From NCBI GenBank assembly GCA_963170185.1, contig CAUJGS010000024.1, forward strand, positions 1 through 34,382: a stretch of DNA of 34,382 nucleotides. The letters run 5' to 3'. Positions within the stretch are counted from its first letter, which is position 1; each line of letters starts with the position of its first letter. This document shows, one piece after another, positions 8,420 to 25,556 of the stretch. The notes below the pieces were generated by a model. That model saw only the letters and a list, made by a program, of their open reading frames with translations. It ran no database searches and was not told the origin of the DNA. This DNA comes from Bdellovibrionota bacterium (GTDB lineage: Bacteria; Bdellovibrionota; Bdellovibrionia; Bdellovibrionales; JAMPXM01). The position numbers and the translations under genes were made by a program.

Positions 8420-8792
8420 TTCGTACCTCGCGATCTTCGCCGTTCATTTCGTATGGGCGGCCTATGTTCACGCCCGGGGCCTTGTCGATCTCTCCGTAGG
8501 GCCGATCAAGGGAACAACAGCTATTTTTCTCGGCCTCGTTCTCTTAAATCTGCCATCGGCTTTGGTGTTTATCCCAGAAGCGGGGATGGCCTCCTCCACT
8601 TGGATCTACGGGCATTGTTTTTACCATGTTTTGCTGACTCTCGACGAGGTGGTGAGAGTGAAAAAGGCCCCGATTCGTGGTGTCTTCCTAGTGAATCACC
8701 TGTACTGGGCTCTGTTGCTTCTGGCGTATGCTTTGAGTGTCGCCAACCAAGAAGTTTTTTCTCATAGTGCGGCCATGCGGGGTGGATTGTGA
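8382..8792 (+). CDS. Small integral membrane protein, first gene of the lipid-type operon
   Basis: Starting from the ATG at 8382 gives 136 residues with about four hydrophobic segments: near FGLISYLAIFAVHFVWAAYV, GTTAIFLGLVLLNLPSALVF, TWIYGHCFYHVLLTLDEV and GVFLVNHLYWALLLLAYAL. Polar residues sit inside them, including His, Asp and Tyr (YGHCFYH, LTLDE, VNHLYW). I do not recognise the family. No GTG or TTG start exists between 8382 and the first membrane segment, so the start cannot be later; an upstream ATG at 8328 has no better ribosome site. The stop overlaps the GTG of the ligase by 4 bases (GTGA), so translation is likely coupled and the protein probably works with the downstream enzymes. 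Confidence 0.7.
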   Translation: MNGITVGTDFGLISYLAIFAVHFVWAAYVHARGLVDLSVGPIKGTTAIFLGLVLLNLPSALVFIPEAGMASSTWIYGHCFYHVLLTLDEVVRVKKAPIRGVFLVNHLYWALLLLAYALSVANQEVFSHSAAMRGGL

Positions 8793-10264
8793 GCCTAAAC
8801 GGGGTAACCCCAGTTCTTGAAGCCATCGGCAAGCACCCCAATCGGCCAGCGCTGATTTTTCCTCGCCGTGCGGTTATGAGCTTTGGAGAGCTTGAGCGAG
8901 AATCGAAACGCTATCAGCTGGCTTTGAAGTCGCTGGGTATCGGAAAGGGCGAAACTATTCTCTTGGGTGAAGCGCCCTGCCCGGAACTCTATGCCTTTGT
9001 GCTGGCGGCCTTGGCTCAAGGAACGGCGGTGGCGGTCATCGAGCCGTGGATGCCGCTTTCAAAAATTGAATCGGTGGTTGAAGGTTTAAGGCCGAGACTT
9101 TTTTTGACGGGGCCTTTGGGGCGCGCGTGGGGAATTCGGTCGCGAGCGATTCGAAATATCCCTAGTTGGATGAGTCTTTCCGGGCTTCGACGAGAGGCGG
9201 AGATGAAACCTGCCGACATTGCAGGTTCTTTAGATGTGAAGTCGCTTGCGGCGGACCATCTTGGGCTCGTGGCTTTCACCAGTGGCACGACGGGTCTTCC
9301 CAAGGGAGTGCCTCGGCGTCACGAATATCTCATTCATCAGCATCGCGTTTTAAAAGAAGCCCTTCATCACGAGCATCATGAAAAGCCAGAGCTTACGATT
9401 TTTACCAACTTCGTCTTTGCGAATCTTGCGAGCGCAAGAGGATCGGTCGTGATTCCTTCTTCTTGGAAAGCGCAAGACTTGCGTTGGGCTTCGGAGCTTC
9501 AGGGCGAGCTCGCGCCGGAGACGGGGACGATGGGGCCCGCATTTTTGCGCCGTCTAGTGGTGGAGTCCGGATTTCAGAATTTGCGTTCGCTTCACGTCGG
9601 CGGGGCATTGACCGACACGGCGATCTTTGAGTCCGCGTTTGGTCGCTTTCGGGAAACAGAGTTTCTTCATGTGTACGGAAGTTCAGAGGCCGAGCCCGTG
9701 GCGGTGATGGATGCGCGCGAAGCCGTGAATCTCAGTCGAGAAAGCGGCCGATTTCAGACATTGGCTCTTGGCAGACCGATCGAACAGATTCAGCTTAAAA
9801 CCGAACTTTCCACGACGTGGGTGAAGGGTCCGCACGTCTGCCCGATGTACATCGGGAAAGATGAAAATGTGGCCGAGGAGAATCGCCTGAATAAACGCAT
9901 CGATGCCGACGGCTCGATTTGGCACGCGATGGGTGATCGTGTGAGCTTAAAAAACGGCGTGCTCTGGTACGGCGGACGAAGTTCACAAAGCGAAACAGAT
10001 TTCGAGCGTGAACAGCAGCTGTACTCGGCACTCGATACAAGTAAGCTTTTTTTGCATAGAGAGCGAGATGGCTCGCTTCAGCTCTTTTGTGAGGGAGCAA
10101 AGGATAAACTCTCGCGAATCCAAAGCGAAATTCAGGACTGGAACGAGAGAGTTTCGATATATCAAACGGAAATTGTTCGAGATCGCCGTCATCGCGCGCG
10201 CATCGACCGCGTGAAGTCGCGAGAGAAGTCCTCGTTTTGTAGTGAGAAGATGGAGAAGACATGA
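8789..10264 (+). CDS. Acyl-adenylate-forming ligase, OleC-like AMP-binding protein
   Basis: This 491-residue member of the ANL (acyl/aryl-CoA ligase) superfamily shows FTSGTTGLPKGV (A3 phosphate loop), VYGSSEAEPVAV (A5) and AMGDRVSLKNGVLWYGGRSS (A7/A8). The sequence around A3, A5 and the MGDR region resembles OleC-type ligases of olefin synthesis more than ordinary fatty acyl-CoA synthetases. The segment where OleC has HNAKI (the A10 lysine) reads HRARIDRVKSRE here, so that lysine may be replaced by arginine. The expected reaction is activation of a carboxylate, probably a long acyl chain, with ATP. The start is GTG with GGGGTGGA in front. It overlaps the preceding gene by 4 bases (GTGA) and the UbiA gene by 4 bases (ATGA). 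Confidence 0.82.
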   Translation: MSLNGVTPVLEAIGKHPNRPALIFPRRAVMSFGELERESKRYQLALKSLGIGKGETILLGEAPCPELYAFVLAALAQGTAVAVIEPWMPLSKIESVVEGLRPRLFLTGPLGRAWGIRSRAIRNIPSWMSLSGLRREAEMKPADIAGSLDVKSLAADHLGLVAFTSGTTGLPKGVPRRHEYLIHQHRVLKEALHHEHHEKPELTIFTNFVFANLASARGSVVIPSSWKAQDLRWASELQGELAPETGTMGPAFLRRLVVESGFQNLRSLHVGGALTDTAIFESAFGRFRETEFLHVYGSSEAEPVAVMDAREAVNLSRESGRFQTLALGRPIEQIQLKTELSTTWVKGPHVCPMYIGKDENVAEENRLNKRIDADGSIWHAMGDRVSLKNGVLWYGGRSSQSETDFEREQQLYSALDTSKLFLHRERDGSLQLFCEGAKDKLSRIQSEIQDWNERVSIYQTEIVRDRRHRARIDRVKSREKSSFCSEKMEKT

Positions 10265-11172
10265 GTCAAAAAGCCATTGAGCCCAATAGCGTGAGCGCAT
10301 GGACGATTTATCTTAAAGAGCGTTTTCCGCTTCCGGTGTACTTTCTCTTAAGTGGCGGACTTGTGCTGTCGGGATCTGTTCTGGCCTATATGGAACCGTT
10401 CACGGTTCTCACGCTTTTGGCGTTCGCTTTTGCTATGTGGCTTTTTGCGACACTCCGTTTGATGGATGAGCTTAAGGACTATCAAAAAGACCTCGTCGCC
10501 CATCCCACACGCCCGTTGCCGCGTGGACTTATCAAGACGGATACCGTCAAGAGCTTGATTCGAGTTTCGATGCTCGTGGGCCTTGCGATTTCAGGGGGTA
10601 TGTATTGGGCGAATCCGGTCGCCGGTATCTTCGCCCTCATTTCCGCGGTCTGGCTTTGGTTGATGTACAAGGAATTTTACATCGGCGAGAGCTTGGCGAA
10701 GCGACCTCTTATTTATGCTGTCACACATCAGGTAATCCTCATTCCGTTTTGCCTAGCGCTTTCGATGCGACCGCAAGTTTATGGCTCGATGCTAAACCTC
10801 AAGATCCTAGTATGGGCGATTGGTGTTTTGGGTTCGTTTTTCACCTACGAAGTTTCCCGCAAACTTGATCCCAAAGCGCATCCGGTTTTGCAAACCTATC
10901 TCGAGGTGTACGGCAAAGGCGGGTCATTTGCGATCGTGCTCGGCCTTTTCCCGCTTTGTCTGGCGGCCGCTCTTATGAGTCATCTTGAGATCTGGCTGCT
11001 GCCATGGTCTGTGTTGACGCTGCTTTCGTACGGACTGCTTTGGCTAAGCGTTCCGAAAGGGAAGGTCGACAAGCGCCACAAACTCATCGAAGGGTTTGCG
11101 ACACTTTCTTTGTTCTTTCATATCTGGACACCGATTTTGAAGTACTGGCTTGCGATGCAGGTAGGAGAATAG
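10261..11172 (+). CDS. UbiA-family prenyltransferase
   Basis: The 303-residue protein is almost entirely membrane segments, about nine, as expected for UbiA-family intramembrane prenyltransferases. The first Asp-rich motif is present as LMDELKDYQKD, followed by HPTRPLPRGLI, the usual sequence after that motif. The second region reads YEVSRKLDPKAHPVLQTYLE, in which the family's second Asp-rich motif is reduced to one Asp plus Glu and Lys. The enzyme should use a prenyl (or similar) diphosphate and an acceptor in the inner membrane. The acceptor cannot be read from sequence and there is no sign of a quinone pathway nearby. It lies between the ligase (4-base overlap) and the dikinase-like gene (3-base gap), so it belongs to this pathway rather than to housekeeping metabolism. 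Confidence 0.85.
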   Translation: MSQKAIEPNSVSAWTIYLKERFPLPVYFLLSGGLVLSGSVLAYMEPFTVLTLLAFAFAMWLFATLRLMDELKDYQKDLVAHPTRPLPRGLIKTDTVKSLIRVSMLVGLAISGGMYWANPVAGIFALISAVWLWLMYKEFYIGESLAKRPLIYAVTHQVILIPFCLALSMRPQVYGSMLNLKILVWAIGVLGSFFTYEVSRKLDPKAHPVLQTYLEVYGKGGSFAIVLGLFPLCLAAALMSHLEIWLLPWSVLTLLSYGLLWLSVPKGKVDKRHKLIEGFATLSLFFHIWTPILKYWLAMQVGE

Positions 11173-11175
11173 CGG

Positions 11176-14028
11176 ATGGCGTATCTGATTTATCCCAAAG
11201 ACATTCGAAGCTTAAATCAAGAAGCACAAGAAAAGCTCTTGCGTGAAGAGGTCGGTGGCAAGGGGAAGAATCTCTTTCGCATGACGGTGCTTGATCTTCC
11301 TGTGCCACAGTGGTTCGTCGTCGGAGCTCCGGCATTCGCGAAGTTTCAGATCGAGTCCGGAATTCATGCGAAAATCGAAGCGGTTTTGGTGGCGATGAAA
11401 AACCGTCTGCAAGAAGCCGAAGCGGCAGCGGTACGTCCGGAGCCCGCGATATTTGACGAAGCGGCAAAAGCCATCGAGGAGATGATCGTTCACTCGGCGC
11501 TTCCAAATGAACTCGCGATCGAACTCAAGCTCGGTCTTGAGTCCACGGAACTCGCCAACGAGGAATGTGCGGTTCGGTCAAGTGGTCTGGATGAAGATTC
11601 GGCACAGAACTCCTTTGCCGGTCAGTTTTCGAGTTACCTGTTTCAAAAAGGTCTCGATGCGATTTCGGATTCGATAAAAAAATGCTGGGCCTCTGGTTTT
11701 TCGGCGCGGGCTCTGAGCTATCGTTATGAACGTGGGCTGGGACTTGAAGAGATCTCGATTGGTGTCGTGATTCAAAAGATGGTTCAGGCTGATCGAGCGG
11801 GTGTGGCGTTTAGTCGAAACCCGATTCGTGCTCTTGATCGCGACTCGCTTTTGATCGCATCGGTTTATGGTCTTGGCGAGGGCCTGGTGAGCGGATACCT
11901 TGAGTCGGATTCTTACGATGTTTCCAGATCTAAGCGGACCATCAAAGCAGACCTTGTGACGAAGGATCAGGCCTTTCGCCGATCGACGGAAGGTGGCCTT
12001 AAGATCGAGTCGGTTGATCAGGCCCTGCAAAAGGTCTCGTCGCTCTCGGATGAAGAGGTTTTGAAAGTCGCGGATCTTTGCATGGATCTTGAGAAAAAGC
12101 TCAAAGCGCCTCAAGACTGCGAGTGGGCGATTGAAGGCGGCAAGGTCTATCTTGTCCAAACCCGCCCGGTCACGAGTCTTCCTCCAGACACTTATTTCGA
12201 ATCTAGTAGTCGAGGCGTGTCTGCGACCCTGTGGGATAACTCGAACATCATCGAAAGCTACTCAGGCGTTACGACACCTTTGACGTTTAGCTTCGCGTCT
12301 CGCGTGTATCGCCAAGTGTACATCCAATTTTGCGAAGTCATGGGGATCCCAGAAGCCTGGATTATCGAGCGCGAAGATGTTTTTCGTAACATGCTTGGCT
12401 TGATTCGCGGGCGCATCTACTACAACTTGGTCAATTGGTACAAACTTGTTCTGCTGCTTCCTGGCTCCGCGAACAACAAAAGCTTCATGGAAACCATGAT
12501 GGGCGTGAAACAAGGCCTTAAGCCGGAAGTCGCAAAGCTTTTTGAATTCGTGAACAACCCACCCAAGTACAGTGTCTTGCAAAAGCTCACGCTTTTGGTT
12601 TCGACCTACTTACGTTTTAAGAAAATCGACACGCTTGTCGGCGAGTTCAATAAAAACTTTGTCGAAACCTACGAGGATGCAAGAAAACGTCCTTACCGAA
12701 CCTACAGCTTTGATCAGCTTGTGGATGAGTATCATCGCCTGGAGGATCGCTTCCTTAAGCGGTGGCAGGTTCCAATCATCAATGATTATCTCTGCATGAT
12801 CTTTTTCGGACTTCTTAAAAAGCTCACGGAAAAATGGGTGGCAAGCGGCGACGAAGGCGGATCGCTGCAAAACGATCTTCTTTGTGGTCAAGGCGACCTT
12901 GAGAGCACGGAGCCGACAAAGACCCTGATGCGTATTGCAAAGGTCATCGACAAGGGTGATCCGTCGTCGCGCGAGTGGTTCTTAAAAGGAAAGCCGGGAG
13001 AAGTTTGGGCTACTTTGGCGCAAGAAGCCGCTGGCCAAGTGACAAACCAGCGAAGCGAGATCTACCGACTCTTCGATAACTTCCTCGATCTCTACGGTTT
13101 TCGTTGTATCAACGAACTAAAACTTGAAGAAAAAGACTTGCACGACGACCCAAGTTTCGTCGTTGGTTCGGTGCAAAGCTACGTGCGCACGGGGTCTTAT
13201 GATATCGAAAAGATGGAAGCGCGCGAGCTTGAAATTCGCGGCAAAGCCGAAAAGATTCTGGAAGAAAAGGTCTCTGGTCCAAAGCTTGCGATTTATCGCT
13301 GGGTTTTAAACGAAACCCGTCGCGCCGTTCGAAATCGCGAAAATCTTCGTTTTGCGCGAACCAAAGTTTTCGGCGTTGCCAGAAAAATTATTCGGGCGAT
13401 GGGGTATTGTCTAAAGAACCTCGGGTTCTTGCGACAAGAGTCTGATGTGTTTTATCTCACGATCGAGGAGCTGATCGCCTTTAACGAAGGTCGAACAGTG
13501 ACTTTGGATCTTGCGACTCTCACGGAGCTTCGCAAGAAAGAGTTTTTGAGCTTCGACAAAACTCAGCCGCCACCAGATCGCTTTTTGTTGGAAGGCGCGG
13601 TTGGTGTGAGCCTCCCCTACGGGCAGGTGCTTGCTGAGCTAGATCTTCTTCGCTCGGAACGACCAAAATCCGATGATCCAAACGTATTGATAGGCACGCC
13701 TTGCTGCCCGGGCGTGGTGGAAGGCGTTGTTCGCGTCGTAAAAGAGATGAAAGACGCCGAAGGCATTGCCGGTGAGATTCTTGTGACTGAGCGCACGGAT
13801 CCGGGTTGGGTTCCGCTTTACCCCAGCTGTTCGGGGCTTTTGATCGAGCGTGGAAGTCTGCTTTCGCATTCGGCGGTTGTTGCGCGAGAACTTGGTCTTC
13901 CCACGATTGTCGGGATTTCGGGTGGTTTGATGAAAAAGCTAAAGACCGGCGACCGAGTGCGTGTCGACGGCGCTAAAGGTGAAGTGCGGATTCTCAAAGA
14001 CGAGACCGAGAAGGCAGTGGAGGCCTAA
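11176..14028 (+). CDS. PEP-synthase/rifampin-phosphotransferase-like dikinase
   Basis: This 950-residue protein has the ATP-grasp part of PEP synthase-like enzymes: GGKGKNLFRM, CAVRSSGLDEDSAQNSFAGQ, VIQKMVQADRAGVAFSRNP and DCEWAIEGGKVYLVQTRP. A long central region of about 470 residues, starting WDNSNIIESYSGVTTPLTF, takes the place of the usual substrate domain. The C-terminus is the swivelling phosphohistidine domain, TDPGWVPLYPSCSGLLIERG then SHSAVVARELGLP, with catalytic His898. There is no TIM-barrel PEP domain, so the layout matches rifampin phosphotransferases. Such enzymes split ATP to AMP and pass a phosphate from His to a substrate. The operon context argues for a biosynthetic substrate rather than an antibiotic. 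AGGAGAA lies 8 bases before the ATG. Confidence 0.85.
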   Translation: MAYLIYPKDIRSLNQEAQEKLLREEVGGKGKNLFRMTVLDLPVPQWFVVGAPAFAKFQIESGIHAKIEAVLVAMKNRLQEAEAAAVRPEPAIFDEAAKAIEEMIVHSALPNELAIELKLGLESTELANEECAVRSSGLDEDSAQNSFAGQFSSYLFQKGLDAISDSIKKCWASGFSARALSYRYERGLGLEEISIGVVIQKMVQADRAGVAFSRNPIRALDRDSLLIASVYGLGEGLVSGYLESDSYDVSRSKRTIKADLVTKDQAFRRSTEGGLKIESVDQALQKVSSLSDEEVLKVADLCMDLEKKLKAPQDCEWAIEGGKVYLVQTRPVTSLPPDTYFESSSRGVSATLWDNSNIIESYSGVTTPLTFSFASRVYRQVYIQFCEVMGIPEAWIIEREDVFRNMLGLIRGRIYYNLVNWYKLVLLLPGSANNKSFMETMMGVKQGLKPEVAKLFEFVNNPPKYSVLQKLTLLVSTYLRFKKIDTLVGEFNKNFVETYEDARKRPYRTYSFDQLVDEYHRLEDRFLKRWQVPIINDYLCMIFFGLLKKLTEKWVASGDEGGSLQNDLLCGQGDLESTEPTKTLMRIAKVIDKGDPSSREWFLKGKPGEVWATLAQEAAGQVTNQRSEIYRLFDNFLDLYGFRCINELKLEEKDLHDDPSFVVGSVQSYVRTGSYDIEKMEARELEIRGKAEKILEEKVSGPKLAIYRWVLNETRRAVRNRENLRFARTKVFGVARKIIRAMGYCLKNLGFLRQESDVFYLTIEELIAFNEGRTVTLDLATLTELRKKEFLSFDKTQPPPDRFLLEGAVGVSLPYGQVLAELDLLRSERPKSDDPNVLIGTPCCPGVVEGVVRVVKEMKDAEGIAGEILVTERTDPGWVPLYPSCSGLLIERGSLLSHSAVVARELGLPTIVGISGGLMKKLKTGDRVRVDGAKGEVRILKDETEKAVEA

Positions 14029-14031
14029 AAT

Positions 14032-15039
14032 ATGGGGTGGCTGATTCGCGATGTGACGGCACAAGAATTTGTGAGCTACTTTGGCGAGCCAAGCCGGGAC
14101 CCGCTGGCGAGATTTGTTTTGGCACCCGTGCCGTTTCCTCGACAGTTTGTGTTTGCGTATCGTGAAGGGGAGTCGAAACCCGCAGCTAGAATCTGCGGCT
14201 CGCAGTCGGTGGAAAAAGATCTGGCCATCGGTTTTTTTAGCGGGGAGCCTGACGCATTTCAGCCGATGAACCGTCATCTAGAAGCCTGGGCTATGCGACA
14301 GGGAGCCTCGCGTTTGATCGGCCCCATGATTTACAACACATGGTTTCCATATCGAGCAAGGCTCTTTGATGAAGAGCAATCGCGAATCGGAGCGGAAGGC
14401 TTTCAAGCGTTTTCTTGGGAACCGAATCAAAATCGCGGTGACGAGCGGCTTTGGGAGGATGCCGGGTATCAGGCGATCGAAAAGTATTCTTCTCGTGGCT
14501 ACAGCGATCTTCAGGGCTTTTATCAAAGATTGAAGCCGGCTCTCGATGCGGCTCTCGCGGATGGTTTTACGATTCACACGTTTCCAAGTCTGATGGTCGA
14601 TGAGGCTTCTCGTAGCCGTCTCCTCGATGATCTTTTCCAGCTCACTATGCAGAGCTTCAAGGACGCCTTCTTGTTTCAGCCGATTCCGCGCGAGTACTTT
14701 CATCAGCTCTATCTCGCTGGGTTTTCGGAGCTAAAGGATCTTTCTAGCTCATTCCTGATGCGTGATCGCAAAGGTCGTGCCGCCGCATTTAGTTTTGGAT
14801 TCCCGGATCGTGGTTACATGGTCTTTAAAACGTTAGCGGTAGGCACAGACTACCGAGGCAAAAAGCTCTCAAACGCCGTTATGGCGGCAAGTGCCGAGGT
14901 TGGAGTTCGTCAGGGTTTGGATAAGATGATTCACGCTCTTATGCGGCGCGGGAATTTGAGCGAGCATTTTGGTGGACGCTCGGAACTTCTCTTCGAGCAT
15001 AGCTATGGACTCTTTGCCAAACAGTTGGATTCGAAGTAG
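14032..15039 (+). CDS. GNAT-family acyltransferase
   Basis: The 335-residue protein starts 3 bases after the dikinase stop. The C-terminal part shows the GNAT acyl-CoA-binding region: MVFKTLAVGTDYRGKKLSNA followed by a helix, with a beta strand before it (AAAFSFGFPDRGY). The N-terminal half contains a second GNAT-like fold region ending in IGPMIYNTWFPYRARLF, so the protein may be a tandem or fused GNAT. No signal peptide or membrane segment is visible, so it acts in the cytoplasm or at the membrane face. It should move an acyl or acetyl group from CoA (or ACP) to an amine or hydroxyl of the pathway product. The substrate is unknown. Confidence 0.75.
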   Translation: MGWLIRDVTAQEFVSYFGEPSRDPLARFVLAPVPFPRQFVFAYREGESKPAARICGSQSVEKDLAIGFFSGEPDAFQPMNRHLEAWAMRQGASRLIGPMIYNTWFPYRARLFDEEQSRIGAEGFQAFSWEPNQNRGDERLWEDAGYQAIEKYSSRGYSDLQGFYQRLKPALDAALADGFTIHTFPSLMVDEASRSRLLDDLFQLTMQSFKDAFLFQPIPREYFHQLYLAGFSELKDLSSSFLMRDRKGRAAAFSFGFPDRGYMVFKTLAVGTDYRGKKLSNAVMAASAEVGVRQGLDKMIHALMRRGNLSEHFGGRSELLFEHSYGLFAKQLDSK

Positions 15040-17646: not shown

Positions 17647-18747
17647 TTAGCCCTTTTCGAAGATATCAAACTCATAGACGCCGGTTGTATCTAAATCTCG
17701 TGCCCAAGACTCTTCGATCGCGAGTTTTGTCCAGCCTGAACTCTCGATGCCCGGTGGTCGTCTGAGGAAGCTTCGAATTACCATGCGACTTCCTGACTTT
17801 GTTTCTTTGGGGAGGTTTTGAAGCAATAGTTTCGCCTCAAGTTCCGGCAAGTAAGAAATCGTGTCCGAAAGCGAGATGAAGTCGTAGGGCTTAGTTTTCA
17901 GAATTTCCAAGAGATTGGCCTGCCGGTATTGAACCTCGGTCGAGGAATCTTTGATGCTAAACAGGATGTCTTCTCGCGCTTCAAGTGGAAGTCCCTCTTC
18001 GTAGGCGACGCTTCCAAGAAATAGAACTTGCAGGAAGTAATTCTTTCGGATGAGCGTTCGAGTGAAGAGTCGTGTGAATTCTTCTTCTATGAAGGCCGCT
18101 GGCGTACGTGACTCGGTTCGACGGTCGCTTTGCCCCGAAAAGTGGCCTTTGTAGAGAAAGCGATTGAAGACAAACTCACTGGCGGCGATTCGCACGAACG
18201 CTTTGAAGACAAGGGGTTTAAAGTGTTTTTCAAAGAGTTTGTTCTGCTCTTCCAGCGAATGCGCCTCGAATATTGGACGCGTGTCGAGCCGTAAAACTTC
18301 GCGAAAGATTCGTCCCATTTTTTGAAAATGACCTTCCCAGCGTCCGAGGAGGATAAAACCTCTTGGAATCCAGGCATTTTTTCGTTCGAGCCAGAACCGA
18401 TAGGTGGGTTCGGCGAGGTGGGGTTTTAGATTTACAAAGAGTTCCATGCGATCGTCGTGGCTGGCGGAGTTGCCAGGAATGCCGCCGCGGTATCCTAAGA
18501 AAAATAGGAATTCGTCACGCGAGAGATGGCGTGCGGCCGCAAGACGTAGTTCGACGAGCGCGAGTTGTTCTTGAGACAGGTCGACGACATCCAGAGATTT
18601 TGGATCGCGAGCGATTAAGGGAAGCACGCGCGCCCCACTGCCGCCGATGCAGAAGACCGATTGAAGATCGGGTTTTTGAAGTGTCCACTCGATCCGTGTG
18701 TCTTCGTTGGAGAGAGTGTAATTGAGATTTTTAAAGTACTCGCTCAT
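17647..18747 (-). CDS. BtaA-like (DUF3419) 3-amino-3-carboxypropyl transferase
   Basis: The 366-residue protein matches the DUF3419/BtaA family. It starts with LNYTLSNEDTRIEWTL. An S-adenosylmethionine-binding Rossmann motif, VFCIGGSGARVLPLIA, is followed by LDVVDLSQEQLALVELRLAA. Further on are FWLERKNAWIPRGFILLGRW, the family's central block, and YDFISLSDTISYLP near the C-terminus. BtaA transfers the 3-amino-3-carboxypropyl group of S-adenosylmethionine to diacylglycerol, making diacylglyceryl-homoserine, the precursor of the betaine lipid DGTS. The methyltransferase BtaB, which would finish DGTS, is not in this window. The 4-base overlap (ATGA) with the upstream barrel gene ties it to the operon. 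The acceptor here may not be diacylglycerol. Confidence 0.8.
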   Translation of the reverse strand: MSEYFKNLNYTLSNEDTRIEWTLQKPDLQSVFCIGGSGARVLPLIARDPKSLDVVDLSQEQLALVELRLAAARHLSRDEFLFFLGYRGGIPGNSASHDDRMELFVNLKPHLAEPTYRFWLERKNAWIPRGFILLGRWEGHFQKMGRIFREVLRLDTRPIFEAHSLEEQNKLFEKHFKPLVFKAFVRIAASEFVFNRFLYKGHFSGQSDRRTESRTPAAFIEEEFTRLFTRTLIRKNYFLQVLFLGSVAYEEGLPLEAREDILFSIKDSSTEVQYRQANLLEILKTKPYDFISLSDTISYLPELEAKLLLQNLPKETKSGSRMVIRSFLRRPPGIESSGWTKLAIEESWARDLDTTGVYEFDIFEKG

Positions 18748-19883
18748 AAAACCAATCCTCCGGTAAATTCCAATCGAAGACCGTATATCGTTTCACCCAA
18801 AATCGACTTTGCCTGCCCGAGAAGGCGGCCAGCCTGTCCGTCGTAACGTTGTAGGCCGGCGGAAAGAAGAAGCCCTTCATAGAGTTCTCGGCCGATTCGC
18901 AGCGACAAAAAGCGATCGTCGGCGGCTGAAGGCTGTCCAAAACCAATCATGACGTCGGATTCAAGAGACCATCGTTCTTTGGTGTAGCGAATCGGAAGGT
19001 AAAATATAGCTTCGCCGTCGTTTTGCAAGGCTGGGTCTTTGAAGGTCGTAATCTGAGGTCCAATTAGCCATTCATCGAGAAACCAATCGGTTCCAAACAT
19101 CGCAAACATGGCATCGCGGTCCGAGTTGCCGGCTTCGAATTTGAGAACGACTTTTTCAAAAGCGTAGCTCGCAAGCAAGCCAGTTTGTAGATCTCTGGAA
19201 TTGGTACCCGCTATCTTTTTTGTCGAACCAATGGCGGCCACCTCAAGAAGACCAAGCTTAACGCCAAGCTTGGCGGCGGTTTCGCCAAGGTTTTCTCGGT
19301 CACGATTTGGTAAGGGTTCGGCGAAACGAAACGGTGCCGAGCGAAGTACTTGGGCCACGTCGAGATCCCAAGAGTTTCCCTGAATTGTTCCCGAATAGGT
19401 TAGGCGAATGGCATCGGGGTGCGTGAGTTGATCGATCAAGGGATCAAGAAAAAAGCGATTGAACCTGCGCCCGGTGAGGAGGTCAAGAGATGGCAGCGTC
19501 CAGCTTTGACTCCATCGAATCGGCTGCCGACCGATACGAAGGCCAAGACCATTGGTAAAACCAAGATCCAACCAGGCTTCATTGAGGTCGGATTCCTCGC
19601 GCGATTTTCTTAGATCTGGTTGGCCGAGCGGCTTTTTTTCCTGCTCGGCGAAGTCGCGCGTCACGAAGCCCTCTAGGCGCATACGGTAACTGGCGAGGCC
19701 GAAACTGTTGGCTGAGATGTTTCCCGACTTGTCGGCGGCCAGGCGCAGATAAAGCTCTTGCTTGGCCCCCTTTTCATAGAGATCGAGTCTGGGCACATAT
19801 TCGAGGCTGGTCTCGGCATTTGCGAGCCGAGGAAGTGCTGCGAGAGCGAGAAGGCCTGCGAGAATCGTGAACTTGAAAGACAT
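18744..19883 (-). CDS. Outer-membrane beta-barrel protein
   Basis: The 379-residue precursor has a signal peptide (MSFKFTILAGLLALAALPRL, cleavage after ANA). The mature protein is made of alternating polar/hydrophobic strands and ends in an aromatic-rich, strand-like stretch (ETIYGLRLEFTGGLVL), as beta-barrels do. The block EAWLDLGFTNGLGLRIGRQP is typical of porin-like or DUF1302-type barrels, which often travel with a LolA-like protein and an RND exporter. It overlaps the LolA-like gene by one base (TGATG) and the BtaA-like gene by four. In this operon it may receive or flip a lipid at the outer membrane. No transporter for the inner membrane is encoded alongside. Confidence 0.72.
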   Translation of the reverse strand: MSFKFTILAGLLALAALPRLANAETSLEYVPRLDLYEKGAKQELYLRLAADKSGNISANSFGLASYRMRLEGFVTRDFAEQEKKPLGQPDLRKSREESDLNEAWLDLGFTNGLGLRIGRQPIRWSQSWTLPSLDLLTGRRFNRFFLDPLIDQLTHPDAIRLTYSGTIQGNSWDLDVAQVLRSAPFRFAEPLPNRDRENLGETAAKLGVKLGLLEVAAIGSTKKIAGTNSRDLQTGLLASYAFEKVVLKFEAGNSDRDAMFAMFGTDWFLDEWLIGPQITTFKDPALQNDGEAIFYLPIRYTKERWSLESDVMIGFGQPSAADDRFLSLRIGRELYEGLLLSAGLQRYDGQAGRLLGQAKSILGETIYGLRLEFTGGLVL

Positions 19884-20650
19884 CAGCGTACCTTCTCAAG
19901 ATTCTGCAGGGTGAAAACGGAATCCGCCAGATCGGACTTTTCCATTTTCAAAATCGAGATGGTGGATGACTTCCCAGTGACGTCTTCGATAACAAGTGTC
20001 GTCGGGCGGAGGCTGCCGGCGATATTCTTGTATTCGGTGTAGCGCGCGCGCTTTAACACGGTTTTTCCATCGAGACCTAAAAACTCGGCACGACTCGGTC
20101 TTGCATTTTGCTTGTCCACCCAGAGTCGAATCTTTTGATAGGTGAGCATGGGTTTATTGCCTTCGAGGAACAGCACGGCATCTTTGTCGTCTTCTTTTTC
20201 CAAAGTCGCCGTGTAGTCGCCATGCCAGCGAGTGCGCGCTATATCGCCGTTTGAAACTTCGCCAGACATTTTTTGCGCAAGCGACAGCCGAACGGATTTT
20301 TTAAGGTTCGGAATATAAGCGTGAAAATCGCGATCCAGCATCAGCATGTTGCGGCCGCGATCTTTGGCCGGGCTCTTGACCACAACAAGGGTTTTTTCTT
20401 TTCCTTTAAGAAAAACGTCAAAGGTTTGGTCCGTCGACGAAGTCTTCACGCCAATCGTCATCGTATAGGTCTCGGCGGGATTTCGCACATCGTCGGCCAT
20501 TTTTAAGAGACGATCGGCCGAGATTTTTTCCGCAGCATAGGTATGCCGGACATGGCCCACGAGACAGCTAAAGAAGAGTGCTAACAAAAGGACCGGTGAA
20601 ATAACGGACGAGCGTCTGTTTAGTTTTAATGGAAAATGTTGAGTGATCAC
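19883..20650 (-). CDS. LolA-like outer-membrane lipoprotein-sorting-type protein
   Basis: This 255-residue precursor starts at GTG, overlapping the upstream gene by 4 bases (GTGA). A basic leader is followed by a hydrophobic core (SVISPVLLLALFFSCLVGHV, cleavage near TYAA). The mature protein has the half-barrel sequence pattern of the LolA-like domain: ADRLLKMADDVRNPAETYTM, FLKGKEKTLVVVKSPAKDRG and RTRWHGDYTATLEKEDDKDA, then KIRLWVDKQNARPSRAEFLG. Proteins of this type are periplasmic and bind a lipid-like ligand in a hydrophobic cavity. Here the partner is the next gene, an outer-membrane barrel, so I infer that the pair carries a lipid product from the inner to the outer membrane. Confidence 0.82.
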   Translation of the reverse strand: MITQHFPLKLNRRSSVISPVLLLALFFSCLVGHVRHTYAAEKISADRLLKMADDVRNPAETYTMTIGVKTSSTDQTFDVFLKGKEKTLVVVKSPAKDRGRNMLMLDRDFHAYIPNLKKSVRLSLAQKMSGEVSNGDIARTRWHGDYTATLEKEDDKDAVLFLEGNKPMLTYQKIRLWVDKQNARPSRAEFLGLDGKTVLKRARYTEYKNIAGSLRPTTLVIEDVTGKSSTISILKMEKSDLADSVFTLQNLEKVR

Positions 20651-21333
20651 GAGTGTTGCTCCTCGAATGCCAATTGGATGGCTTGGGCCGCGACGTCGCG
20701 GGCGTGAATCGGCTTGATGGATTTTGGAAGATTGATTCCGATTTTTTGAATGAAGTGAAAAACGCTTTCCGCCAAAGATTCGCCAAGGCGTTTTGTTTCT
20801 CGTTCCCCCAATAGGAGGGATGGACGAATGATTCGTATTTGCGAGAGATTGAGACTCAAAATCTCTTTTTCAAGCTGACCTTTGATGCGGGGGTAAAAAA
20901 ATAGCGAGTCCGAGTTGGCCCCCGAAGCCGAGATCAGAACCAATGTCGAACTGGCTTTTTTTAAAGCCGTCACCCGGGAAAACTCCTTGGCCGTTTCCAA
21001 TTGATAGGTGAAATCGACAAGGTACTGTTGAGATTTGCTTCCGGCCTGTTTCAGGGTTGTGCCAAGAGCGGAGAAGAGAACGCCGTGGTCGCCCGGCAGT
21101 AGGCTATCGAACCAATTCGTGGGTGGCTGAGAAAGAGCATCGAAGTCGACGACGAGCTCTTGAAGCTTGTGATCGGTAGGTTCAGAGTTTTTCAATTTCC
21201 CCGGACAACGTACGAAAGCCGTCACGGATGAGACATGGTCGACTTTCAAAAGGCTATCTACGATTTCACGACCAACAAGTCCTGTTGCTCCCAAAACGAA
21301 AGCTTTCGCAGAGCGACTTTTTGAAACTGTCAC
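20647..21333 (-). CDS. TIP30/NmrA-like NAD(P)-binding oxidoreductase
   Basis: The 228-residue protein is a short atypical SDR. GATGLVG near residue 14 binds NAD(P). FSALGTTLKQAGSKSQQYLV and VLISASGANSDSLFFYPRIK are characteristic of the HTATIP2 (TIP30)-like branch, and YPRIK supplies the catalytic Tyr-x-x-x-Lys pair. The start is GTG (21331-21333), overlapping the stop of the preceding gene as GTGA; the end overlaps the LolA-like gene the same way. The gene is therefore translationally coupled on both sides. The substrate is not predictable; in this operon a keto- or aldehyde-lipid intermediate is reasonable. Confidence 0.8.
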   Translation of the reverse strand: MTVSKSRSAKAFVLGATGLVGREIVDSLLKVDHVSSVTAFVRCPGKLKNSEPTDHKLQELVVDFDALSQPPTNWFDSLLPGDHGVLFSALGTTLKQAGSKSQQYLVDFTYQLETAKEFSRVTALKKASSTLVLISASGANSDSLFFYPRIKGQLEKEILSLNLSQIRIIRPSLLLGERETKRLGESLAESVFHFIQKIGINLPKSIKPIHARDVAAQAIQLAFEEQHS

Positions 21334-23465
21334 GAGAGACCTCGAGCACGAAGAGCTAGTTCACGACATAGCTGAATTTCTTTATCGGATATAATTCCGG
21401 CTGGGCCACGAATCATGGCGAGCTTCACTCCGTGGCGAACGGCCAGGCGGTAGATTTCTTTCACTTTTTGCCAATCAAGATCGCGCCCAAGAGTAAAAGA
21501 CTCGTAGCGCTCTTCCATGGCAAGCAGAGCCGTTTCACCTAGGCAGGCATAGACGACATTGTCTGGAAGGCCGATGTCGCAGTTTAGCTGGTTGTTCGCC
21601 CCAGGAAGAACGACTTCGCCGGATTCGATAAACAAAACGTCGGGTCGCTTCATGATATCTTCGGGTGTAAAGTCGAGCGGACGTGAGCAGTCGCATACGA
21701 CGCATCCGGGTTTTAACAACATGACATCGACGACTTTTTGATCAAACGCCGATGTCGCGGTCACGAGCACATCCGTGTGGGATGCAACGAAGTTGGCATC
21801 AGTGGCTAGTCGCACTTCGGTTTTTGGATTGAGCTCTGCGATTTCGTTTGCCAGTTCTTCGAGGCGCTCCATGCGAGGCGCCACTAAACAAACCCGCTCA
21901 AAGACCAGGGCCAAAAGCTTTGCGGAAACTTTCCCGATCGACCCTGTTGCTCCAATGATAGTCGCGGTTCCTTTGACAAGCCCGGTGTCGGAGTCGACTT
22001 TTAAGAGCCCCATCTTTTTTACCGCTTCGTGCACAGCCCAGAGCGTTGCCGAGGCGGAAAGGGAGTTTCCGGTCGTAACCGGAATGGGGCTCATGCGATT
22101 GATCGTGGCACCGGCATCTCCGACGATCTTCGTGTAAGCGCCGAGGCCGATGATACGCGCGCCTTGATTGGCGGCGTGATGGCAAAGCCGTTCGATTTTC
22201 TCGTAAGTCACTTCCGGTGATTCTTCTCGCATCACGCGCGGAGTTGCGAAGAGGCCGTAGACCACGCCGCCAACTTCTCGACCTGTTTTTTTGGAAACGA
22301 TTCCGGTCATGCTGCCGTAAACGATTCCCGGAAGTTTTGCGGCGGCGTTTTCGATGTACGGCTGAAAGTTTTTTGGAAGCTTTCGAGCTATCTGAAGTCC
22401 AGGTACACGCGTCAGGTCGCGAAAGCTAAGGCTATGAACGACAAACGCGAAGTCAGGTTGTTTGGTGGCTTCTTTTCTATGCGAGGCTAGAATTCGCGAT
22501 TTCACTAGGCGCGTTTGAATGGATGGTCTTGCGGCTGTGACATAGCGCCGGGTTTCGTGGGTGATCTCGGTTTCGCTTTCCAGAATTTCTTGCCAGTCCT
22601 CAAGCGAAAGTGAAGTGGTTTTGCCTTTTGAGATCCGCAAGACCGCGTCGATCGCGGAGTGGCTAAGTTTGGTATCCCAGGACTCAAATCGTTCGGGCAT
22701 GAGGCGGTGAACCTTGGCTGCGCCCAGTCGTTCGAACTCTCGGATTAAACGAGGGTCAGAAGTCGTGGAGATGATTTCGCGCCCACGTAGGATTTCGGTG
22801 TCTCTTGCAAAGAGATGAATCAGATAGGGGTCTCCGAAGACATACCGATAGGCGCCTAGTTCACGTGTCAATGAGGCAAGCGACTTTTCGCGTTTCACAT
22901 TGGAGGCGCGTGGGGCCAGATCGCCCATGTCGCGAAACTGTGAGACGGCGATTCCAAGTTTGGTGAGTTCTAAAAGGATCGGCCACGGTTTGGCGACGAT
23001 AGGAAGGCCAAGTCCGGCGTAGAGGTCCCCAAATCCGATTCGCGCGCCGTATTTTTCGTGCACGGTCGAGAGCGCTTCCATGTGAAGCAAACCTACGGGA
23101 AAAAAGATGCCGTCTCGCGGTTCGATGACGCCTTCGCGCGCGAGTCTAGCGATGCCGTCGATTTCGGCCAGTTCGCGCAAGCGTTCGCCGTTGCAAAGGG
23201 GAACCGAAACCGGTGTCGACATCACCTCCAGGGCTTGTCGATGGGTGTACACGCGATCGCGAAAGCGAATTTCCGTGGGGAAGCTTGTGATAGCGAAGGC
23301 ATCGACTTGCGAGCGCAGGCGCTCGATCATGGTTTTTAGGCTTTCGACGCTGTACTCGACGCCGATTCTTTGGATTTCAAAGCTATGGTCTCCAACTTGA
23401 AATTTGGAGGAGTAGTTCCATCGACTGGAGCCGAAGCTGAGTTCAGCGATTCTGTGCGTAGCCAT
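21330..23465 (-). CDS. Acyl-ACP-reductase-like protein with a large unknown N-terminal domain
   Basis: I chose the ATG at 23465 because GGAGAGG lies 5 bases ahead; an in-frame ATG at 23498 has no such site. The 711-residue product is two-part. Residues about 336-711 resemble cyanobacterial long-chain acyl-ACP reductase (AAR): FAFVVHSLSFRDL at its start, GARIIGLGAYTKIVGDAGAT, TGNSLSASATLWAVHEAV, the nucleotide-binding GATGSIG (505-511), and VVYACLGETALLAMEE. In the last, Cys641 aligns with the cysteine that carries the acyl group in AAR. The distance from GATG to Cys (136) also fits. Residues 1-335 are an alpha/beta-looking domain I do not recognise, containing FFPVGLLHMEALSTVHEKYG and VFGDPYLIHLF. 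Expected chemistry is reduction of an acyl thioester to an aldehyde with NADPH. Confidence 0.78.
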   Translation of the reverse strand: MATHRIAELSFGSSRWNYSSKFQVGDHSFEIQRIGVEYSVESLKTMIERLRSQVDAFAITSFPTEIRFRDRVYTHRQALEVMSTPVSVPLCNGERLRELAEIDGIARLAREGVIEPRDGIFFPVGLLHMEALSTVHEKYGARIGFGDLYAGLGLPIVAKPWPILLELTKLGIAVSQFRDMGDLAPRASNVKREKSLASLTRELGAYRYVFGDPYLIHLFARDTEILRGREIISTTSDPRLIREFERLGAAKVHRLMPERFESWDTKLSHSAIDAVLRISKGKTTSLSLEDWQEILESETEITHETRRYVTAARPSIQTRLVKSRILASHRKEATKQPDFAFVVHSLSFRDLTRVPGLQIARKLPKNFQPYIENAAAKLPGIVYGSMTGIVSKKTGREVGGVVYGLFATPRVMREESPEVTYEKIERLCHHAANQGARIIGLGAYTKIVGDAGATINRMSPIPVTTGNSLSASATLWAVHEAVKKMGLLKVDSDTGLVKGTATIIGATGSIGKVSAKLLALVFERVCLVAPRMERLEELANEIAELNPKTEVRLATDANFVASHTDVLVTATSAFDQKVVDVMLLKPGCVVCDCSRPLDFTPEDIMKRPDVLFIESGEVVLPGANNQLNCDIGLPDNVVYACLGETALLAMEERYESFTLGRDLDWQKVKEIYRLAVRHGVKLAMIRGPAGIISDKEIQLCRELALRARGLS

Positions 23466-24561
23466 CAAAGCCTCTCCACAGAGTATTTTCAAGGACACTA
23501 AAGGACGGATAAAAGTCGTTTCCTAATGTGTCGTCAGAAGATTGAAAGTCGAGCTCGGGAAGGTTGATCACGTACTCAAGTTCTTCGCGTGGGAGGCGAG
23601 CGATCCATTCGGCAACGGGCTTCACGATAGAGTCGGGTATGCTGCTCGTGATTTTCACGTCGCTATCGAGACCGAGATGACGAAGTGCCGAGGTGTAAAG
23701 CTCGCGCGCTGTTGGTCCGTTTGAGGGTGCAACATAATAGCTCTTGGTCAAATCCTCTGATGCAAAAAAATCTCCGATGAGTTTTGTTATCGCTTGGGCC
23801 GCTAAGTCTACGGGTACAAGCGGGATTCGTCGATCCGAATGCCCAGGCAAAAACAGCGGTCCATGCCAGGCGTCGAGGACTTTTCTTAGGCGTCGGAATG
23901 CATCGACGGCATGGTAGGGGCCGTCGATACGTAAGATGCGTCCATCTTTCGAGTCACCGACAACGATACCTGGTCGGAGAATCAGTTTTCGTTTGGGAAA
24001 TTCGCCCGACCAGTTTCGCACAAGCTTCTCGGCTTCCGCTTTTGTTGTGGCGTAGTGATCTGGAAATGGACCGCGAACCTCTTGATCGGGCGCAATCGGC
24101 CGTTTGCCGTCTGTTTCGGTCGGTTTGCCGTGAAACTCGGGGCGGCGAATACTGGCGTCGGCTGTGCGAACGTCGATTGTGTGCCCGTGGCCCATAGTCA
24201 CTGCGACCGTCGAGATATGAGTGAATACCGGAATTTTTAGAAGCTCACTTAGGTGAAGCGCGTTGTGCGTGCCGTAGACGTTGTGAAGGAACGCATCCTC
24301 CAAGCTCACTCGGAGGTCGTAAAGACCGGCCATGTGAAGAAGCAGATCAAACTTCTCGCTTTTCAACTGTTCAATAGCGGTCTCATCAAGACCGGCATCC
24401 CACTTTGAAAGATCGGCATGCAGGACGCGGTCCGCGGCCTCTTGTTTCTTGGCTTGTCTTGAGAGCGTGACGATCTGAAGCTTTGGATAAGCGGATTTTA
24501 GCGCCCGCAGCACCCAGTGGCCGAGAAAGCCGCTTGCGCCCGTGACGAGGACCTTTTTCAT
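23443..24561 (-). CDS. Extended SDR, fatty-acyl-reductase (FAR)-like
   Basis: The 372-residue protein has the N-terminal NAD(P) motif VTGASGFLGHWVL, a Ser/Thr in THISTVAV, and the catalytic pair in DHYATTKAEAEKL (YxxxK). RPGIVVGDSKDGRILRIDGP is the signature seen in fatty-acyl-CoA reductases and related thioester reductases, more than in sugar epimerases. The C-terminal 90 residues probably form the substrate-binding lid. It should reduce an acyl thioester, aldehyde or ketone. It starts 4 bases inside the end of the lipid-kinase gene (ATGA) with GGAGG in front, and its end overlaps the AAR-like gene by 23 bases. Two different acyl-reductase types side by side suggest sequential steps. Confidence 0.78.
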   Translation of the reverse strand: MKKVLVTGASGFLGHWVLRALKSAYPKLQIVTLSRQAKKQEAADRVLHADLSKWDAGLDETAIEQLKSEKFDLLLHMAGLYDLRVSLEDAFLHNVYGTHNALHLSELLKIPVFTHISTVAVTMGHGHTIDVRTADASIRRPEFHGKPTETDGKRPIAPDQEVRGPFPDHYATTKAEAEKLVRNWSGEFPKRKLILRPGIVVGDSKDGRILRIDGPYHAVDAFRRLRKVLDAWHGPLFLPGHSDRRIPLVPVDLAAQAITKLIGDFFASEDLTKSYYVAPSNGPTARELYTSALRHLGLDSDVKITSSIPDSIVKPVAEWIARLPREELEYVINLPELDFQSSDDTLGNDFYPSFSVLENTLWRGFDGYAQNR

Positions 24562-25556
24562 TCGGCCTCCGCTGAACCGGAAAACACCGGAAGAGCATGC
24601 TTAAGACAAGTCACTTCAATTTCTCGAACCCCGCGCTGAAGGATCTCGCCGTCGCCAAAGAAGGTCAGGTTTCTGGCCGAGCCCTTTGAGCGGAAAACGG
24701 CATGCGAGGTTTCGATACGGGGACAAACGGACTCATCCGGCAAAAGTCCTTTGCGGATTTTCATCAACGATCGCGCGATTCCGGCAAGGCTGCTGGATTC
24801 CACCAAGAGGATATTGAATGTGCCGTCGGTGTTGGAAGTTAAAGGAGCCGGGATGTATTTGCCACCCAAGCCAGGTTGATTGTTCACCATGATAAACGGC
24901 GCGCTTGTCTCTCGCTTCTGACCATTTCCTAGTTCAATCGAGACACACCAGCCGCGAAGCCATTCGCGCGATCGACCTGTGAGAAGTTGGCCCGCCAGGA
25001 GGAGTTCATAAATCTGAGACCCAACAAGACGGACCGCGTGACGAAGCGGGTTGGATTGCCGAAGCTCAGAACGAACCTGATTGGCCAGATCCGCCGTCTC
25101 GGCGGCGATACCGAGTCCGCCGTTTGTGAGCATGTAGACGGTGCGCTCGTCAGATTTGACCTCGATGACATCAATGGCGTGGGGCTCTGTTTCTAGCACA
25201 CGTCGGGCGGTGCGCTCTAGTCGGCGACTCAAGCCAAGTTCCGACGCGAGATCGTTGGCTGTTCCGACGGGGAGCGGAAGAATGGGAGGAATTTTGAAAG
25301 CGGTATCGTTTGCTTTCTGAGACTGCAGGCGTGCCATCAGCGGCTGAATAGCCGTATTCAACGTGCCGTCGCCGCCGCAGATGATGAGCGCATCGGAGGT
25401 TTTAGAAAGTTCTAAAACAAGGTTTTGGAGATCGGTCGGCGATTGGGGTGTGAAGTACTCCCGCTCTGTTCGAAAGAGCGCGCGATCACAGGCGGAGCGG
25501 ATGGCGTCTATGGACGCGTTCCCAGCTTGACCGTTGATCAGAACTGAGACCTTCAT
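24558..25556 (-). CDS. Diacylglycerol-kinase-family lipid kinase
   Basis: The 332-residue protein shows the DAGK catalytic domain signatures: INGQAGN at the start, ICGGDGTLNTAI (the nucleotide-binding GGDGT), LPLPVGTANDLASELG (the family's LPLGTxNDFA block), TNGGLGIAAETA, and FFGDGE near the C-terminus. It therefore belongs with DgkB, YegS and sphingosine-kinase-like enzymes. It transfers phosphate from ATP to the hydroxyl of a lipid, perhaps diacylglycerol or a long-chain alcohol made by this operon. There is no signal peptide; it acts at the cytoplasmic face of the membrane. GAAGGA precedes the ATG and the upstream gene ends 10 bases away. Confidence 0.88.
   Translation of the reverse strand: MKVSVLINGQAGNASIDAIRSACDRALFRTEREYFTPQSPTDLQNLVLELSKTSDALIICGGDGTLNTAIQPLMARLQSQKANDTAFKIPPILPLPVGTANDLASELGLSRRLERTARRVLETEPHAIDVIEVKSDERTVYMLTNGGLGIAAETADLANQVRSELRQSNPLRHAVRLVGSQIYELLLAGQLLTGRSREWLRGWCVSIELGNGQKRETSAPFIMVNNQPGLGGKYIPAPLTSNTDGTFNILLVESSSLAGIARSLMKIRKGLLPDESVCPRIETSHAVFRSKGSARNLTFFGDGEILQRGVREIEVTCLKHALPVFSGSAEAE

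Follow-up and report, generated by a model that had tools for sequence, protein, structure and literature searches.

The window analyzed here, a 34,382-nucleotide stretch of contig CAUJGS010000024.1 from the genome of a Bdellovibrionota bacterium (assembly GCA_963170185.1), encodes on its minus strand a 711-amino-acid fusion protein (21330..23465). Specifically, an N-terminal "partner" domain (residues 1-335; 22461..23465) is joined to a C-terminal thioester reductase domain (residues 336-711; 21330..22460) of the type found in acyl-acyl carrier protein (ACP) reductase (AAR) and PigE, with a GATGSIG dinucleotide-binding motif (residues 505-511; 21933..21953) and a cysteine, Cys641 (codon at 21543..21545), that is the equivalent of AAR Cys294. 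The open reading frame (ORF) runs from an ATG at 23465 to 21330, and the plus strand over the same stretch is crowded with stops. This ATG is the likely start because GGAGAGG lies five bases ahead of it (23477-23471) and homologue matches begin no more than four residues from its methionine; some profile matches given below are numbered on a 722-amino-acid open frame, longer than the 711-amino-acid protein. The 5′ end of the gene overlaps the 3′ end of an upstream short-chain dehydrogenase/reductase gene (SDR1), which in turn overlaps a lipid kinase gene. Downstream, each of four genes overlaps its predecessor by 1 to 4 bases, so that the block from kinase and SDR1 through the fusion gene and these four genes reads as an operon. 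A scan of the region for sigma-70-like promoters found none, where chance alone would give 4.9, and carries little weight. Full-length homologues of the fusion were present in 22 of 98 genomes, the window's own included (25 of 98 with any match), and the N-terminal domain alone matched in 84 of 368 genomes of the same phylum (about 50 of them distant, nearly all in one other family); the ORF is therefore not a product of chance.

The preliminary description had recognized the C-terminal ~375 residues as AAR-like, with the GATGSIG motif and the cysteine at the right spacing, and both observations were borne out. Among NCBIfam models, residues ~350-696 of the 722-amino-acid frame matched that of PigE (NF053554; 162 bits, E 2.2e-47 to 3.9e-48) over model positions 2-338 of 837, and residues 405-692 matched that of AAR (TIGR04058; 46.4-48.9 bits, E 3.2e-12 to 5.6e-13), with both scores below the curated cut-offs of 850 and 449.7, respectively. 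Both models were matched at E <=0.001 by all 18 reductase domains of one alignment (A5). Searching PDB sequences with the window protein recovered a PigE entry at E 8.5e-23 and AAR at E 3.6e-10, and the predicted structure of the full-length protein (mean pLDDT 77.8) matched AAR structures as a group at Z 29.7-31.6 (6jzq, Z 31.6 over 325 residues) and the TAD structure 9e4s at Z 30.7. In the profile of the 18 reductase domains, the window's YACLAE stretch aligned on FACFAEA of AAR and Cys641 fell in the AAR cysteine column, the title of PDB 6jzz (AAR-C294S) placing the AAR catalytic cysteine at 294. GATGSIG and Cys641 were invariant in a 20-protein alignment. GATGSIG was present in all 55 fusions and the pattern [YF]AC.[AG]E in 54, the remaining sequence (L090) reading WACLAE, so that the cysteine is kept in 55 of 55. 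A weak match to PF01488 (shikimate/quinate 5-dehydrogenase) also fell in this half, at 509-585 of the 722-amino-acid frame. In both its two-domain fold and its profile matches, the C-terminal half belongs to the AAR/PigE/TamH thioester-reductase superfamily.

AAR has been described as a one-protein enzyme of alkane synthesis. Because the reductase domain is homologous to AAR, a cyanobacteria-like route, in which the aldehyde would be deformylated to an alkane, was considered. The preliminary description had reported no aldehyde-deformylating oxygenase (ADO) here, and this now extends to the whole genome: no match to PF11266 was found in the 95.7%-complete assembly, and Synechococcus elongatus was positive in the same search. 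On these grounds we rejected alkane synthesis, which we regard as having almost no chance of being correct. Because it scores below the curated TIGR04058 cut-off and its genome yielded no ADO, the window protein is a variant of the AAR/PigE thioester-reductase superfamily and not an AAR equivalog; placing AAR among its relatives was sound at the level of the superfamily, but the nearest characterized protein is PigE (162 bits, against 46 for AAR, both below the cut-offs). PigE is reported to reduce a thioester intermediate (PMC8341465), and the thioester reductase domain of TamH is reported to reduce C12-ACP to the aldehyde with NADH, TamH converting the aldehyde on to the amine, while the coenzyme A (CoA) ester yielded no product (PMC9594044). 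From the latter, acyl-ACP is the better guess for the substrate.

The N-terminal ~335 amino acids matched nothing in Pfam or NCBIfam, and the PDB sequence search returned no relatives of this domain. Scans of 30 diverse N-terminal domains against Pfam and NCBIfam gave nothing convincing (scattered hits, each confined to one or two members at E 0.005-1, we put down to chance), those of 18 stand-alone relatives from Bacillota gave no family name, and PF01488 in particular was unmatched by the 30 and the 18 alike. The domain thus kept the nameless status given to it in the preliminary description with regard to these databases, but it could be placed. A Firmicutes family of ~300 amino acids resembling it, annotated as "quinate 5-dehydrogenase," provided the query; since this query returned 442 relatives in a scan of GTDB genomes, the family is real (a search of viral contigs with the same query gave no match). 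In profile comparisons by hhalign, each E-value being that of one single comparison, the diverse N-terminal domains (alignment A3) aligned to the Bacillota proteins (A4) at E 1e-38 over 299 columns, and the set close to the window, with the window included (A2), did so at E 5.1e-17 over 285 columns, with identities of 20-22%. By these profiles, the N-terminal domain is homologous, near full length, to a stand-alone family common in Bacillota, members of which we call partners. Of 38 proteins read from the N-domain search set within the window's phylum, 35 were fusions and three were stand-alone proteins of 318 amino acids from one genus (L082:8387-9343, L083:3069-4025, and L084:2995-3951); these share a neighborhood unrelated to that of the fusion, and each of their genomes lists a second, longer ORF with a partner domain. 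A plasmid search with the N-terminal domain of a diverged homologue, L077, gave no match. Titles and abstract openings returned by a literature search contained no account of this fusion, pair, or locus. PMC9425974 lists, for Deinococcus-Thermus, a family with the annotation "quinate 5-dehydrogenase" that is found in Thermus as well as other bacteria; its identity with the partner family is a guess.

For the Bacillota loci, counts rest on the best 80 of the 442 relatives. An AAR-like gene lay directly downstream of the partner in 50 of the 80 (49 at distances of -120 to 400 bp, and L183, where the two overlap), at a median gap of 19 bp. Since the N-terminal domain is homologous to a stand-alone protein whose gene usually adjoins that of an AAR, the window gene is the fused form of a two-gene pair. 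Within the 50 AAR partners, the glycine pattern was absent in four and the strict cysteine pattern in ten, of which six were read: five keep the cysteine with a different neighbor, and L150 is without it. Outliers in ORF length were L183 (505 amino acids), L152 (840), and L146 (911) at the long end and L166 (291) at the short end. Two of these AAR partners, L150:9440-10567 and L185:9395-10450, have an eroded glycine motif, L150 also being without a cysteine in place, and may be reductases in decay, the partner next to them being intact. Of the 30 loci that had no adjacent AAR, 25 came from genomes with some AAR match elsewhere, comprising nine strong unlinked stand-alone AAR genes and many long ORFs of ~850-930 amino acids; the three long ORFs read wholly or largely (L206, L208, and L209) contain a class III aminotransferase, identified by eye and via the PigE and TamH papers. 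At L203, L206, L208, and L209, Bacillota loci in which the adjacent pair is missing, an AAR-type domain is beside or fused to a class III aminotransferase, which suggests aldehyde-to-amine pathways.

The pairing also held in a wider sample of 199 genomes taken evenly across the phylum of one of the Bacillota organisms (partner at E <=1e-3, AAR at E <=1e-30). The partner was present in 154 genomes and AAR in 133: both occurred in 131, AAR only in 2, the partner only in 23, and neither in 43 (Fisher value 3e-24, n=199, which ignores shared descent). The two AAR-only genomes have long ORFs (917 and 873 amino acids) that are probably aminotransferase fusions. In the first 25 AAR rows of the sample, read by eye, 21 AAR genes adjoin the partner on the same strand. 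Neighborhoods fetched for 13 of the 23 partner-only genomes held no AAR nearby and, in eight, had a conserved helix-turn-helix (HTH) gene; for this reason the partner may also serve some function independent of AAR. A 173-amino-acid HTH protein (L177:159-680) lies directly upstream of the partner, and its cluster recurs in 50 of the 80 Bacillota loci and in 8 of the 13 AAR-less ones. Judged by sequence, the neighbors of the Bacillota pair are coaX-, dusB-, HTH-, greA-, and lysS-like genes.

A predicted structure of the L077 homologue (300 amino acids, pLDDT 91.3) offered a view of the partner's fold. AAR and TAD structures filled ranks 1-9 of its structure search at Z 10.6-11.7, and in Foldseek the first hit was TAD and the third AAR, at query TM-scores of about 0.5, sugar-binding proteins ranking between and below them. 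As modeled, the partner has a two-domain dehydrogenase-like fold that is closest to AAR by a small margin. Such a fold would suit an N-terminal domain that is itself catalytic, a dehydrogenase whose nucleotide site is unusual, which would carry the aldehyde on to the alcohol and make the protein a bifunctional thioester-to-alcohol reductase. Asp145 (L077 numbering), where the second Rossmann strand ends, is invariant in both the fusion N-terminal domains and the Bacillota partners, a DRFGM loop is conserved in the latter, and, as described above, the partner occurs in genomes that have no AAR. However, the loop is not retained in the fusions, and the GxGxxG/A glycine motif was nearly absent (0 of 18 rows of A2, 0 of 30 of A3, and 1 of 18 of A4). 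GATGx[IV]G was found in none of the 66 rows of the three alignments, some proteins being present in two of them, and no cysteine column was common to all three, the near set A2 having its own invariant Cys91. Moreover, the adjoining SDR1, present in 31 of 31 relatives and with its YxxxK intact in the window, could perform the aldehyde step. We consider a catalytic role of this kind unlikely.

Among the 62 reductase domains of a quick tree, the 24 fusions all formed a single clade (SH-aLRT 100), and on this sequence tree the fusion appears to have arisen once. Branches are long and carry no bootstrap values, so that the tree gives the exact sister group of the fusions tentatively. L152, from Bacillota, grouped with the aminotransferase fusions.

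Upstream of the fusion gene, on the same strand, lie SDR1 (23443..24561), a thioester-reductase-like SDR of the NAD_binding_4 family (Pfam E 2.3e-31; the YxxxK motif reads YATTK), and the YegS/DAGK-type lipid kinase (24558..25556; Pfam DAGK_cat E 1.6e-17, GGDGT intact). Downstream, also on the minus strand, are SDR2 (20647..21333; NAD_binding_10 in Pfam), found next to the fusion in the window, L027, and L028 alone; a LolA_like periplasmic carrier (19883..20650; Pfam E 8.1e-36); a protein with no Pfam or NCBIfam match beside it (18744..19883), which in our judgment is probably an outer-membrane barrel; and a DUF3419 protein (17647..18747; Pfam E 1.2e-52), which we take to be a BtaA-like aminocarboxypropyl transferase. 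On the plus strand, an AMP-binding acyl ligase with OleC-like matches (8789..10264) is followed by a UbiA-family membrane transferase (10261..11172; Pfam E 1.4e-10), a PEP-synthase-like or PigC-like ATP-dependent enzyme, here termed PPDK (11176..14028), and a weakly matched GNAT-like acyltransferase (14032..15039; Pfam E 0.0012, below the cut-off). We compared the loci of 39 relatives, comprising 34 with the fusion, three with stand-alone partners, and two on contigs that end before the fusion. The order lipid kinase-SDR1-fusion was kept in all 31 relatives with more than 2.2 kb upstream. Among the 34 fusion loci, where counts are lower bounds because many contigs are short, DUF3419 was present in 23, LolCE-like genes in 22, LolD-like and LolA_like genes in 21 each, the barrel-like gene in 19, UbiA in 18, PPDK in 16, the AMP-ligase class in 15, the GNAT-like gene in 6, and SDR2 in 2. 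At L041, genes for the AMP-ligase, UbiA, PPDK, kinase, SDR, fusion, LolD, LolCE, LolA-like, barrel-like, and DUF3419 proteins are consecutive on one strand. L043:83-2485 and L041:16709-19126 encode alpha/beta-hydrolase and AMP-ligase fusions that resemble OleB-OleC, beside UbiA and PPDK genes. Near the contig edge of the window, 44-2179 encodes a protein with DUF3516 and helicase C-terminal domains that is probably cut at its N-terminus. An anti-phage role was discarded, there being no PADLOC match.

With PigE as the nearest characterized reductase, the locus might instead make a small secondary metabolite in the manner of prodiginines or tambjamines, the thioester reductase giving an aldehyde and a PigC-like enzyme coupling the units. 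The PPDK protein does score 338.3 bits to PigC and 359.5 to RedH, but its best match is a generic PEP-synthase model (NF004881, 873.5 bits). PigE-like and PigC-like genes occur together at L046 and on plasmids, but the window protein has no aminotransferase domain, and the lipid kinase, DUF3419, and Lol-like export genes are conserved. We judge this origin for the locus to be improbable. The L046 gene (L046:9563-14639, in genome G058 of the same taxonomic order as the window) encodes an 858-amino-acid aminotransferase and AAR-type protein of TamH-like domain order beside a PigC-like gene, possibly a prodiginine- or tambjamine-type locus. A plasmid search with the fusion protein returned 16 records, all of which matched from the reductase half (residue >=339) and none of which covered 80%.

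Judged from the neighboring genes, a lipid pathway is the most likely fate of the aldehyde. The reading that we favor, by a little over an even chance, is that the fusion is a two-component acyl-thioester reductase in one chain, with the N-terminal domain a non-catalytic partner, and that it feeds a pathway to an outer-membrane lipid. From the gene set, we infer the following order of steps. An acyl-ACP, perhaps charged with the help of the AMP-ligase, would dock on the fusion protein, and the acyl group would move from its carrier (ACP or CoA) onto Cys641, where NAD(P)H bound at GATGSIG would reduce it and release a fatty aldehyde. The N-terminal domain, descended from the separate Bacillota partner, would most likely not be catalytic and may hold in place the substrate carrier or whichever enzyme follows, or else control the reductase. 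SDR1 and the lipid kinase would act next on the aldehyde, DUF3419 would add an aminocarboxypropyl group, the AMP-ligase, UbiA, and PigC-like set would join in building the lipid, and the LolCDE-LolA-like set would carry the finished lipid to the outer membrane.

Several observations weigh against this two-component reductase in a lipid pathway. Export genes are missing from some loci, and the best LolCE-like gene of the window genome (59% identity) is on another contig. No lipid genes surround the AAR-partner pair in the Bacillota loci, and the partner was found without AAR in 23 of the 154 genomes that bear it. Comparison of the N-terminal domain with AAR gave no significant profile homology (hhalign probability 0.2-2.2%); a home-made larger pair of profiles, run with five unrelated decoy families, likewise gave nothing significant, although the profile was poorly built (639 match columns) and so says little in either direction; its aligned stretches had a believable register, to which we give no weight. 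Malic enzyme (Z 10.3) and glutamate dehydrogenase (Z 10.1) came within ~1.5 Z of AAR on the L077 model and, given these close scores and the lack of sequence homology, it is from structure that a reading of the domain as a degenerate AAR draws its case. Furthermore, because Asp145 is kept in both families, a nucleotide may still be bound.

More broadly, and with somewhat less assurance than an even chance would carry, we propose that outside cyanobacteria, in many anaerobic Bacillota, the AAR-type reductases have two subunits and depend on a hitherto unrecognized partner of AAR fold, and that a single fusion of the pair in one phylum became central to a conserved pathway, not described before, for making a lipid from a fatty aldehyde and exporting it to the outer membrane. 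In the 199-genome sample, 131 of 133 AAR-bearing genomes also had the partner, a family nameless in Pfam and NCBIfam and nearly obligate for these AAR relatives; such an AAR expressed by itself may consequently fail. The fusion is a ready test protein for the partner's role, and the gene set kept around it across the phylum predicts a new outer-membrane lipid.

Compared with known systems, the window protein resembles PigE of prodigiosin synthesis (NF053554; PDB 4ppm) in a reductase domain of ~340 residues, its cysteine, and the PigC-like gene nearby, whereas PigE bears a class III aminotransferase where the window protein bears the partner domain. With cyanobacterial AAR (TIGR04058; PDB 6jzq/6jzy/6jzz) it shares the fold, GATGxIG, and the position of the catalytic cysteine, but AAR, at ~340 amino acids, stands alone and works with ADO, whereas the window protein is fused and ADO is absent from its genome. 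TamH, of tambjamine YP1 synthesis, likewise has an AAR-type domain in a natural fusion and is reported to act on acyl-ACP (PMC9594044); its reductase domain is, however, fused to a transaminase. The carmabin pathway's TAD domain (PDB 9e4s-9e56) has an AAR-type fold, and one TAD entry title names a disulfide at Cys2238, but its depositors list it within an amino acid adenylation domain protein. Finally, the Bacillota partner family matches the N-terminal domain in a full-length profile alignment and adjoins an AAR-like gene, while differing in being encoded by a separate gene that is not beside lipid genes.

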